Below, one piece after another: positions 4,363-13,267 of a stretch of DNA of 64,000 bases. A program made the translations under genes and the position numbers. Source of the stretch: Nosocomiicoccus ampullae (GTDB lineage Bacteria; Bacillota; Bacilli; Staphylococcales; Salinicoccaceae); the NCBI RefSeq assembly GCF_019357495.1, contig NZ_CP079110.1, positions 558,001-622,000 of the forward strand, read 5' to 3'. Under the pieces are notes generated by a model that saw only the letters and a list, made by a program, of their open reading frames with translations, searched no databases and was not told the origin of the DNA. How positions within the stretch are numbered: the first letter of the stretch is position 1; the number at the start of each line of letters is the position of its first letter.

Positions 4363-4986
4363 TTATATCGTTTGATCATATTCGTTTTTTAAAAATAGTC
4401 CATGTTTAAATGCATAACCGATTAAAATAATAATTAGTGAAGATACTAGTAATGGCATATTGACCTGGAAGATTGTAAATTCCATTGTAATATCGAGTTG
4501 ATCTAAAGTATCCTTAAACATTCTATAATACAGAAACTCACTGACGGATTCTTTTAAGCTGTAAAGTACAGTTAAAGCGATGAATAAGTAACCAATAATT
4601 TTAATACGTTGACTATTTTCTAATGTGAATATTTCATTTTCACCCATATTTTTAAATAATCGATACGTAAAATATGCAATGAATAAAATAATGGCTAAAT
4701 ATATAATCGTTGTTGAAATAAATAATAATACAGATGGTTTATCGTAAACAACGTCACTAACTTCATTAATATTTTTTATTTTAAATGATGATGATGGTTC
4801 TATAAACATATTAAATTAATTGGATTCTAACAATTGAGTGACTGTTGATTCTTTTAAAAATATTAGTGTTGCTAGTAACACGACTGAAACAGTGAGGCTA
4901 ATCGATATTCCAATAATAGCAAGTAAAGAAATCACCGATAGAATTTTTACAATTGTTCTAAAACGTTTAACATCTTTTTCATTCAT
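4363..4986 (-). pseudogene. DUF2975 membrane protein split by an in-frame TAA
   Basis: Two reading frames lie in the same frame. The first (4986 to 4816) has a strong AAAGGAG ribosome site, encodes 56 residues with one long transmembrane helix and ends in TAA at 4818-4816. Two codons later, still in frame, ATG 4809 opens 148 residues with three more helices and the DUF2975-like loop NMGENEIFTLENSQRIKIIG. ATG 4809 has no ribosome site. Removing the one stop restores a four-helix protein of about 207 residues, the expected architecture. I therefore call a nonsense-interrupted gene. A sequencing error, or reinitiation giving two polypeptides, cannot be excluded. Confidence 0.7.
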
Positions 4987-9338: not shown

Positions 9339-10244
9339 GTGGCAGTATTTGTAGATAAAGATACAAAAGTAATTGTACAAGGTATTACTGGATCTACTGC
9401 GTTATTCCATACAAAACAAATGTTAGACTACGGCACAAAAATTGTCGGTGGTGTAACACCAGGTAAAGGTGGACAAGTAGTAGAGGGAGTACCTGTATTT
9501 AATACAGTAGAAGAAGCGAAAAAAGAAACTGGCGCGACAGTATCTGTCGTTTACGTTCCAGCTCCATTCGCTGCAGACTCAATTATGGAGGCAGCAGATG
9601 CTGATTTAGAACTAGTAATCTGTATTACAGAGCATATTCCAGTTCTAGACATGGTAAAAGTTGTTCGTTATTTAGAAGACAAAAATACACGTCTAGTTGG
9701 ACCAAACTGTCCAGGTATCATCACTGCAGATGAAACTAAAATCGGTATTATGCCAGGATATATTCATAAAAAAGGACACGTTGGCGTTGTATCACGTTCT
9801 GGTACATTAACTTATGAAGCAGTGCATCAATTAACTGAAGCTGGTATTGGACAAACATCAGCAGTTGGTATCGGGGGAGACCCAGTAAACGGTACGAACT
9901 TCATCGACGTATTAAAAGAATTTAACGAAGATGATGAAACTCTTGCGGTTGTTATGATCGGTGAAATCGGTGGTACAGCTGAAGAAGAAGCAGCAGAATG
10001 GATTAAAGAAAATATGACAAAACCAGTGGTTGGATTTATCGGTGGTCAAACAGCGCCTCCAGGTAAACGTATGGGACACGCTGGTGCGATTATTTCAGGT
10101 GGTCAAGGTACTGCTGAAGGTAAAATTAAAGCGATGAACGACGCAGGTATCGATACAGCAGATACACCGTCAGTTATCGGTGAGACTTTAATTGAGCGTC
10201 TTAAAAAAGACGGCCTTTATGAACAGTGCTTAACGATTAAATAA
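9339..10244 (+). CDS. sucD: Succinyl-CoA synthetase, alpha subunit
   Basis: A 301-residue alpha subunit that binds CoA and carries the phosphorylated histidine. Visible signatures are [13 protein letters not shown] (15-27), the CoA-binding Rossmann region with GPNCPGI (121-127), and GHAGAI with active-site H247. The start codon is GTG 9339 with AAGGGGA upstream. It forms the alpha-beta enzyme with SucC and ends at a strong terminator. Confidence 0.97.
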
Positions 10245-10252
10245 TATCATTC

Positions 10253-10283
10253 AAGCAGAGACTTTACGTCTCTGCTTTTTTAT
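10253..10283 (+). terminator. sucCD terminator
   Basis: AAGCAGAGAC (10253-10262) pairs with GTCTCTGCTT (10268-10277), followed by a T tract. Confidence 0.92.
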
Positions 10284-10284
10284 T

Positions 10285-10316
10285 TTGTACCATTTTTTAT
10301 ACGTTTCAATTATAAT
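10285..10316 (+). promoter_or_regulatory. dprA promoter placed for a leaderless transcript
   Basis: TATAAT (10311-10316) lies 6 bp before the dprA ATG. The best -35 (TTGTAC, 10285-10290) has a long 20-bp spacer. Transcription would begin at or next to the A of the start codon. Confidence 0.5.
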
Positions 10317-10322
10317 ACAGTT

Positions 10323-11120
10323 ATGAAACTTCACATTTTACAATTAAGCTTTGCACATGTAACAAGTAAAGAGTTTAAGTCAATTCGAAATGGTGAAGTA
10401 TTAAAAGCATCTACAATTAAAAAAATAGAAAAAGCAAAAAATATTTCTTTAACTTCTATTAAAGAAACATTAACTAAGCACGGGGTAACTTTCATCACGC
10501 AGCAATCTGAATTTTACCCACAGTTATTAAAAGAAATTTACGATCCACCATACGTTCTATATGTAAAAGGTGATTTAAAGGTTTTACAGACAAACTTTTT
10601 AGGGGTTATAGGAAGTCGAAAAGCTAGTTTTTATACGACTCATGTATTAAAACGATTATTACCAAATTTAAAAGCACTATCCATTGTCTCTGGACTTGCT
10701 TATGGTGCAGACGATATCGCCCATTATATTTCTTTAGAGAATGGTTTAAACACAGTAGGTGTTTTAGCATTTGGCCATGATATTCATTATCCAAAGTCGA
10801 CGTTTAAAACAAGAGAAAGAATGGAAGAAGTTTGTTGTACAATTAGTGAATATCCACCAGGTACACCAATTAAAAAGCATCAATTTGTTGAAAGAAACAG
10901 AATTATCGCAGGGATAAGTCACGGCGTTTTAGTTACTGAGGCTGAAGAAAAAAGTGGCAGTTTAATCACATTAGAAATGGCGATGGATGAAAATAGACAT
11001 GTCTTTTGTGTGCCTGGTAATATTACTTCTCCACTCAGTTTAGGCGTTAACGAACGACTAAAGGAAGGCGCAATTTTAGTGACAAATTCAGACGATATTT
11101 TAATTGAATTAAATGTTTAA
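10323..11120 (+). CDS. dprA: DNA-processing protein DprA (Smf)
   Basis: A 265-residue DprA, which binds incoming single-stranded DNA during transformation and loads RecA. The Rossmann-like core runs from about residue 95 (GVIGSRKAS) through SGLAYGADDIAH, FGHDIHYP, RNRIIAGIS and the EKSGSLITLEMA segment to VPGNI. The last domain seen in some longer homologues is absent, as usual in staphylococci. ATG 10323 has no Shine-Dalgarno and the frame has a stop 24 bp upstream (TAA 10299), with no better start. This suggests leaderless translation. Confidence 0.93.
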   Translation: MKLHILQLSFAHVTSKEFKSIRNGEVLKASTIKKIEKAKNISLTSIKETLTKHGVTFITQQSEFYPQLLKEIYDPPYVLYVKGDLKVLQTNFLGVIGSRKASFYTTHVLKRLLPNLKALSIVSGLAYGADDIAHYISLENGLNTVGVLAFGHDIHYPKSTFKTRERMEEVCCTISEYPPGTPIKKHQFVERNRIIAGISHGVLVTEAEEKSGSLITLEMAMDENRHVFCVPGNITSPLSLGVNERLKEGAILVTNSDDILIELNV

Positions 11121-11132
11121 AGTTTTGAAACA

Positions 11133-11162
11133 TTGACAAATTTTAAAGTAAGTGTGTAATAT
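11133..11162 (+). promoter_or_regulatory. topA promoter
   Basis: A perfect TTGACA (11133-11138) is followed after 18 bp by TAATAT (11157-11162), 39 bp before topA. Confidence 0.65.
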
Positions 11163-11200
11163 TGTTCATTGAATAATAAAACGTTAGGGAGGCAATTAAA

Positions 11201-13267
11201 GTGGCAGATAATTTAGTCATTGTAGAGTCCCCAGCAAAAGCAAAGACGATCGGTAAATATTTAGGTCGTCGCTATAAAGTTGTTGCATCAATGGGACACC
11301 TTAGAGATTTGCCCCGTAGTCAAATAGGTATTGATGTAGAAAATAACTATCAACCAAAATATATTACGATTAGAGGTAAAGGACCTTTACTTCAAGACCT
11401 TAAAAAAGAAGCGAAAAAAGCAAAGAAAATATTTTTAGCATCCGACCCGGACCGTGAAGGTGAAGCAATTGCTTGGCATTTAGCGCATGCCCTTGGTGAC
11501 GATAAGGAATATTACCGCGTCGTATTTAATGAAATTACAAAAGACGCTGTAAAAAACAGTTTTAAAGAACCAAGAGAAATGGATCAGCAACTTGTCGACG
11601 CACAACAAGCACGTCGTATATTAGACCGACTTGTTGGTTATAATATTTCACCAGTATTATGGAAGAAAGTTAAAAAAGGATTATCTGCAGGTCGCGTTCA
11701 ATCTGTAGCATTAAAGCTTATTATTGACCGTGAAAATGAAATTCGTAACTTTAAACCAGAAGAATATTGGTCAATTGAAGGTCATTTTAAATATAAAAGA
11801 TCTAAATTTACAGGTAAATTTCATAAACTAGAAAAAGATAATAAAAAAACAGAATTACCAAACAAAGAATCTGTAGACAAAGTGTTAAGTCAGTTAAACG
11901 GTGACGATTTTAATGTAGATACCGTCGAGAAAAAAGAAAAACTACGTTATCCAGCGTATCCATTCACGACGTCAACACTTCAACAAGAATCCGCGCGTAA
12001 GTTAAATTTCCGTGCACGTAAGACGATGATGCTCGCACAGCAACTTTACGAAGGTATTGACATTAAAGGTGAAGGTACAGTCGGTTTAATTACTTATATG
12101 AGAACTGACTCGACACGCGTATCAAATGAAGCAAAATCTGAGGCGTATAGTTATATTGAAGACAAATTTGGTAAAGAGTTTTTAGGCAAACGTAAAGATA
12201 AAAAATCTGAAGGACAAGATGCACACGAAGCAGTTCGTCCAACTTCAACGTTACGTACACCACAAGATATGAAACCATATTTATCTAGAGATCAATATAG
12301 ACTGTATAAGCTTGTTTGGGACCGTTTTGTTGCAAGTCTTATGGCCCCAGCTGTGTTAGATACTGTTCGCGTAGATTTAAATAACAATGGTGTTATTTTT
12401 AGAAGTAACGGTTCGACAATTAAATTTAAAGGTTTCTTACAAGTGTATGAAGAAGGCACTGATGAGAAACAAGAGAAAAATGAAAACATCATCCCAGAAA
12501 TTGCAAAAGATGACACTGTAAAATCTGAGAAAATCGAACCAAATCAGCATTTTACTCAACCACCACCACGTTACACTGAAGCAAGACTTGTTAAAACGTT
12601 AGAAGAGTCTGGTATCGGTCGTCCATCAACTTACGCACCAACGATTGAGACGATTCAAAAGCGTAACTATGTGAAACTCGATCAGAGAAGATTCGTTCCA
12701 ACTGAACTTGGTGAAATCGTATCTGAACAAGTATCAGATTACTTCCCAGATATTATCGATGTCGATTTTACAAAAGATATGGAAAAGCAACTTGATGAAA
12801 TTGCTGAAGGTAATAAAGACTGGGTAAAAGTAATCGATGAATTTTACACTGGCTTTAGACCACAAGTTGAAAAAGCTGAAGAAGAGATGGAAGAGATTGA
12901 AATTAAAGATGAACCCGCAGGTATCGACTGTGAAAAATGTGGTTCACCAATGGTTTATAAAATGGGTCGATATGGTAAATTTATGGCGTGTTCGAACTTC
13001 CCGAACTGTCGTAACACAAAACCAATCGTTAAAAAACTCGGTGTGACTTGTCCGAAATGTGAAAAAGGAGAAGTCATCGAACGTAAATCTAAAAAGGGCC
13101 GTATCTTCTATGGTTGTGACCAATACCCAGACTGTGACTTTGTATCTTGGGACAAACCAATCGGTAGAAATTGCCCGAAATGTGATCATTACTTAGTTGA
13201 GAAACGAAAAGGTAAAACAGTTAAAGTGAAATGTTCGAACTGTGATTATGAAGAAGATGCAAACTAA
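11201..13267 (+). CDS. topA: DNA topoisomerase I
   Basis: A 688-residue type IA topoisomerase that relaxes negative supercoils. The TOPRIM domain occupies about residues 4-115, with [12 protein letters not shown]. The active-site tyrosine is Y299 in [12 protein letters not shown]. Three C4 zinc-ribbon units lie at about 577-686 (CEKC...CSNFPNC, CPKC...CDQYPDC, CPKC...CSNC). The start is GTG 11201 after GGGAGG. In S. aureus and B. subtilis topA is followed by trmFO, but here a terminator and then xerC follow. Confidence 0.97.

Follow-up and report, generated by a model that had tools for sequence, protein, structure and literature searches.

The dprA gene of Nosocomiicoccus is probably transcribed as a leaderless mRNA from a perfect -10 box that is fused to the gene and accompanied by a weak -35 element. 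The gene was analyzed in a window of 64,000 nucleotides from Nosocomiicoccus ampullae, to which all positions refer; the assembly comprises 1,551,959 bases in 2 contigs, with a chromosome of 1,549,333 bases. In the window, dprA (10323..11120, + strand) encodes 265 aa, and its ATG at 10323 coincides with the predicted transcription start. The product was identified as DprA by TIGR00732 (202.6 bits, cut-off 191.15) and PF02481 (231.6 bits, cut-off 29.6), with the DprA domain at residues 51-254; PRK10736.1 (NF008007) scored 178.1 bits, under its cut-off of 495. The close arrangement of box and start codon, its conservation in the genus, and its absence from the relatives compared are all direct observations.

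The -10 box TATAAT (10311..10316, +) matches the consensus at 6/6 positions and, as the original prediction had stated, ends 6 bp before the dprA ATG. It is followed by the 6-nt discriminator ACAGTT (10317..10322, +), which is identical in 3/3 Nosocomiicoccus genomes and would leave no room for a leader, and the first T of the box lies 12 bp 5' of the ATG in all three species. A discriminator of this length would put the predicted +1 on the A of the ATG (A10323), with T at -1. The reported lack of a Shine-Dalgarno (SD) sequence before dprA was also borne out, the duplex energy with the 16S tail being +1.0 kcal/mol. No chosen start in a sample of 424 genes has a weaker value (median -8.5 kcal/mol), a set in which starts, like those of related genes, were chosen partly by SD strength and which therefore favours SD-led starts. 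The corresponding energies in the three Nosocomiicoccus species are +1.0, +1.0, and +0.3 kcal/mol, and the 16S 3' end of the genome is standard, with 4 copies matching GGATCACCTCCTTTCT. The 5' end of the predicted mRNA is not unusually unstructured (z = 0.45), and Rfam returned no match for an RNA element in 9900-11400 at gathering scores.

Upstream of the -10 box, a weak -35-like hexamer, GTACCA (10287..10292, +), is placed at a spacer of 18 and matches TTGACA at 3/6 positions; its function as a promoter element is presumed. At this position Nosocomiicoccus massiliensis carries ATACCA, likewise 3/6, and no TG precedes the dprA -10 box. Because the -35 hexamer is poor and there is no TG, the activity of this promoter is uncertain, and dprA is likely to be transcribed weakly or conditionally, perhaps with an activator. 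The neighboring topA provides a contrast: its promoter-like site (11133..11192, +) combines TTGACA at 11133-11138 with TAATAT at 11157-11162, followed by the SD sequence AGGGAGG at 11186-11192 (SD energy -10.8) before GTG 11201. For dprA, we infer that the housekeeping RNA polymerase would use TATAAT and that the mRNA would start at the AUG or within a base or two. Such an mRNA would have neither leader nor SD sequence, and translation would begin on its 5'-terminal AUG, like that of other leaderless mRNAs.

This reading requires a correctly assigned start codon, and 10323 is almost certainly the true dprA start, because there is no ATG, GTG, or TTG before codon 167 and because the N-terminus aligns with those of relatives. 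Within codons 2-166 of the window gene none of these codons occurs in frame, and codon 167 lies inside the DprA domain; in the two other Nosocomiicoccus species, the next such codon is codon 50. The start codon is ATG in 3/3 species and, together with the peptide MKLHILQLSFA, is invariant across the genus (n=3); the N-terminus can be aligned with relatives, which start two codons further in. One supporting detail of the original prediction was wrong: the frame is not closed at 10299, where a stop codon is ruled out by the in-frame codon ATA, and the first in-frame stop 5' of the ATG is the TAA of sucD at 10242. Since no ATG, GTG, or TTG lies in frame between 10242 and 10323, the conclusion on the start codon survives this error. 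A non-AUG start, either upstream (ATA 10299, CTG 10272) or downstream (e.g., ATT at codon 5), with the real message carrying a leader, is very improbable. Such starts do seem to occur in dprA of two other genomes, G004 (L028) and G053 (L049), where an SD-like motif precedes each of them; against this, no non-AUG codon scored between codons 2 and 50 in the three Nosocomiicoccus species has an SD (nothing below -3.0 kcal/mol), the frame upstream of the ATG differs in N. massiliensis, and ATG plus MKLHILQLSFA is unchanged in the genus.

The gene order at this locus is sucC, sucD, dprA, and topA. The sucD gene ends at 10244 and is followed by a putative intrinsic terminator (10253..10277, +) that has a T run and a stem of 10 pairs, 5 of them G-C; 33 A+T-rich bases separate it from TATAAT. 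A scan for such sites found 2 against 1.9 expected, so that the score alone is weak, and the stem is kept at the same place with changed bases in the three Nosocomiicoccus species. The terminator is predicted to set dprA apart from sucCD transcription. Intrinsic terminators such as this one leak, and dprA might be expressed mostly on longer transcripts arising by read-through, or from an unrecognised upstream promoter; translation would then use an SD-less but leadered mRNA, thanks to an A+U-rich, open region, with TATAAT little used. The weak -35 element is compatible with this alternative, as is the weak folding of an 80-nt segment spanning the ATG (-3.0 to -3.8 kcal/mol across the three Nosocomiicoccus species). 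Nevertheless, we consider it unlikely, given the conserved terminator stem and the lack of any second hexamer matching at least 5/6 (with A2 and T6) in the 60 nt 5' of the ATG. Two weaker hexamers of the window gene, TACCAT and TATTTT (4/6 each), are not conserved in N. massiliensis. TATAAT and its spacing are kept exactly even as bases -28 to -13 match at 10/16.

Could the box nevertheless stand next to the ATG by chance? The sample of 424 genes covered 464 kb, or 30% of the genome, and was obtained with our own simple ORF and codon-pair caller. Among these genes, 22 were counted as SD-less because no start within their first 30% reaches -4.5 or lower (26 if genes are counted by a chosen start above -4.5), and the genome is otherwise SD-led. 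Exact TATAAT occurs 5' of the sampled genes at approximately 0.0046 per position per gene (91 occurrences; 47 positions x 424 genes), giving approximately 0.4 expected coincidences for four positions in the 22 SD-less genes. There is no genome-wide excess of TATAAT-N4-8-ATG (232 vs 296 in a backward control) and no peak of TATAAT distances at 5-8 nt in the sampled genes. A general leaderless habit of this genome was accordingly not seen in the 30% sampled. At the level of single genes, dprA alone has an exact TATAAT located 3-12 nt upstream of the start chosen (1/422; for 2/424 genes the distance could not be counted because a stretch end was too close). It is also the only one of the 22 SD-less genes in which an exact TATAAT lies 3-19 nt upstream of the starts checked; weaker 5/6 boxes lie near some of the others.

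It is the conservation of the region that settles this question. A 47-nt block (10309..10355, +), comprising 14 nt upstream and 11 codons and thus the promoter end, the predicted start, and codons 1-11, is identical between N. ampullae and N. massiliensis and also in Ca. N. stercorigallinarum, so that TATAATACAGTTATG is common to 3/3 genomes. DprA identity to the window protein is 91% for Ca. N. stercorigallinarum and 74% for N. massiliensis NP2. When N. ampullae is compared with N. massiliensis, codons 1-11 match at 33/33 nt, the only such case among 255 11-codon windows of the gene, and of the degenerate codons at shared residues, 10/10 are identical within codons 1-11 vs 101/183 elsewhere (Fisher p = 0.0033). 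The identical run across the start ranks fifth of 35 gene pairs, a count made after excluding pairs in which the alignment started beyond residue 6 or too close to the end of a contig; the four longer runs belong to genes whose proteins are 87-97% identical. Because only three Nosocomiicoccus species were compared, two of them close, the case leans mainly on one divergent pair. Judged from these comparisons, the TATAAT motif by itself is within chance, and its conservation goes beyond chance. A coincidental TATAAT, shared by descent alone, would agree with the approximately 0.4 cases expected and the missing genome-wide excess; it has next to no likelihood, in our view, since the block is identical where the remainder of dprA has diverged and TATAAT also precedes dprA in 28/28 other family members with a canonical start. 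The proposal of a leaderless dprA mRNA is supported at the level of sequence, through the conserved box and spacing, the missing SD, and the upstream terminator.

The family set comprised 33 genomes, of which 32 had a readable dprA upstream region (in G029 the gene lies at a contig edge): 3 Nosocomiicoccus, 1 without a canonical start (G004), and 28 with one. In 28/28 of the latter, the chosen start is at the same aligned codon, TATAAT lies 17-38 nt 5' of it, and the SD energy is -6.7 to -14.9 kcal/mol, in contrast to the 6 nt without SD in Nosocomiicoccus. The gap between sucD and dprA is 145-167 nt in these relatives vs 78, 78, and 87 nt in Nosocomiicoccus. The -35 elements of 29 other family dprA promoters match at best 1-4 of 6 positions depending on the spacer, and TG is absent. 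The original prediction had called leaderless messages rare in the family, and the counts agree: 0/28 among the remaining dprA genes of the family that have a canonical start, and 1/422 sampled genes. Beyond the family, an SD-like motif was seen by eye in 12/12 same-order outgroup dprA genes fetched, which represent 12/27 genomes (f3, 11/14; f2, 1/1; f4, 0/12).

Two of these genes in other genomes have odd starts. In G004 (L028, at ~1495), the SD-like AAAGAGGG is followed by no ATG, GTG, or TTG until dprA codon 48, and the family start-codon position reads ATC, which represents either an AUC start or a sequence error. In G053 (L049, after an in-frame stop at 418-420), GAGGAGG is followed by ACC-ATA, with no ATG, GTG, or TTG before the conserved N-terminus; an AUA start is possible, and this would be the second odd dprA start.

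Because 28/28 relatives have TATAAT at 17-38 nt together with an SD, the -10 box is taken to be old in this family, with the leader as the part that disappeared. A phylogeny built from sucD, dprA, and the N-terminal part of topA separates Nosocomiicoccus plus its sister genus g5 from the rest (UFBoot 100; 28 genomes, no outgroup). In g5 (2 genomes), TATAAT lies 17 nt from the dprA start, the shortest distance outside Nosocomiicoccus, and this spacing suggests a transcribed leader of approximately 11 nt with GGAGG at its beginning. Loss of the leader and SD most likely occurred once, in the Nosocomiicoccus ancestor; the leader appears to have shortened stepwise before vanishing in this genus along with part of the intergenic region. 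The path is ambiguous: either 11 nt were deleted and 6 nt inserted within the gene, or 5 nt were deleted and other bases substituted. Removal of the entire leader by a clean 11-nt deletion, starting from a sequence like that of the sister genome G006, was considered and set aside: ATAGTT after the TATAAT there fits the ACAGTT here, but the alignment gap nets 5 nt. 

A fuller scenario, offered tentatively and with low confidence, describes the birth of a leaderless gene. The leader would have passed from ~20-30 nt in the family through ~11 nt in the sister genus, with the SD at its 5' end, to zero; the coding 5' end would then have become newly constrained, and DprA, unlike comGA and most genes, would have come under leaderless initiation with its own dependence on initiation factors and free 70S ribosomes. 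If true, one gene whose close relatives have an SD leader, a very short SD leader, or none would form a natural series, suited to asking how and why bacteria drop leaders. It would also bear on start-codon annotation, which relies on the SD in Staphylococcales.

The genome also encodes what looks like a real uptake system beside dprA, since it has two ComK homologues over cut-off (G000:C1:1062054-1062494 and G000:C1:397968-398369), one ComEC, and one T2SSE ATPase, taken for ComGA. Staphylococcus aureus likewise has ComK1 and ComK2, the latter named in the title of PMC12491500. The comGA-type gene has an ordinary SD, so not every competence gene is leaderless. The suggestion that a leaderless dprA would link DNA-uptake expression to initiation by 70S ribosomes is a hypothesis only. 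In the passages of PMC9031893 considered here, recognition of the 5'-terminal AUG on leaderless mRNA is attributed mainly to 70S ribosomes, and the MazF-based switch to leaderless translation is described as not reproduced by other laboratories.

Comparable arrangements have been described elsewhere. In the genome-wide prediction of Zheng et al. (2011; PMC3160421), as far as its relevant passages go, genes that lack an SD but carry a TATAAT-like box ~12 bp upstream of the start are termed "TA-led" leaderless genes, and change between SD-led and leaderless orthologues is treated as an evolutionary process. The dprA gene resembles these genes in both respects. Among Firmicutes, 56/209 genomes had predicted leaderless genes, concentrated in Lactobacillales and Mycoplasma (PMC3160421); dprA differs from these cases in being a single gene in an SD-led genome. 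The word "Staphylococcus" is absent from the main text of that survey, whose relevant passages report no leaderless genes for the Staphylococcales (PMC3160421).

Mapped leaderless mRNAs are also found in Bacillota. According to passages of PMC7724050 and PMC6431027, 8.6% of S. pyogenes mRNAs are leaderless, 81% of those also in S. agalactiae, and leaderless mRNAs make up <1% in E. faecalis and E. faecium. These streptococcal and enterococcal cases were mapped, whereas that of dprA is predicted, and dprA is not named in the leaderless passages of either paper. In Deinococcus-Thermus, leaderless mRNA is produced from a -10 motif that lies just a few bp upstream of the ORF and works as a promoter for which the -35 is dispensable, as described in part of PMC12340547. 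The -10 box of dprA likewise stands directly before the ORF, but in Deinococcus-Thermus the mode is common, covering about a third of genes in D. radiodurans (PMC12340547). The housekeeping sigma of E. coli is reported to require a -35 as well (PMC12340547), so such a promoter cannot be presumed active in a Bacillota host. No published record of a leaderless dprA was found among the matches listed, nor, by title, a staphylococcal map of leaderless genes; the passages of PMC8254717 do not call dprA leaderless. Leaderless genes being already known, finding a single one in an SD-led Staphylococcales genome adds only modest novelty; dprA is unusual in standing alone in the sampled part of such a genome and in having relatives in an intermediate state.

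Finally, it should be noted that other genes without an SD were encountered. Three 274-codon ORFs with the same start region (L058:15434-16255, -; L067:2141-2962, +; L067:10979-11800, -) have a first start without SD, and the one scanned encodes a transposase with an integrase core. Each is presumably the second ORF of an IS3-type element, which is produced by frameshifting and would therefore need no SD of its own. In the window, a DUF2975 gene (4363-4809, -) also lacks an SD; the preceding open frame stops ~8 nt before its ATG, and translational coupling is the likely reason.
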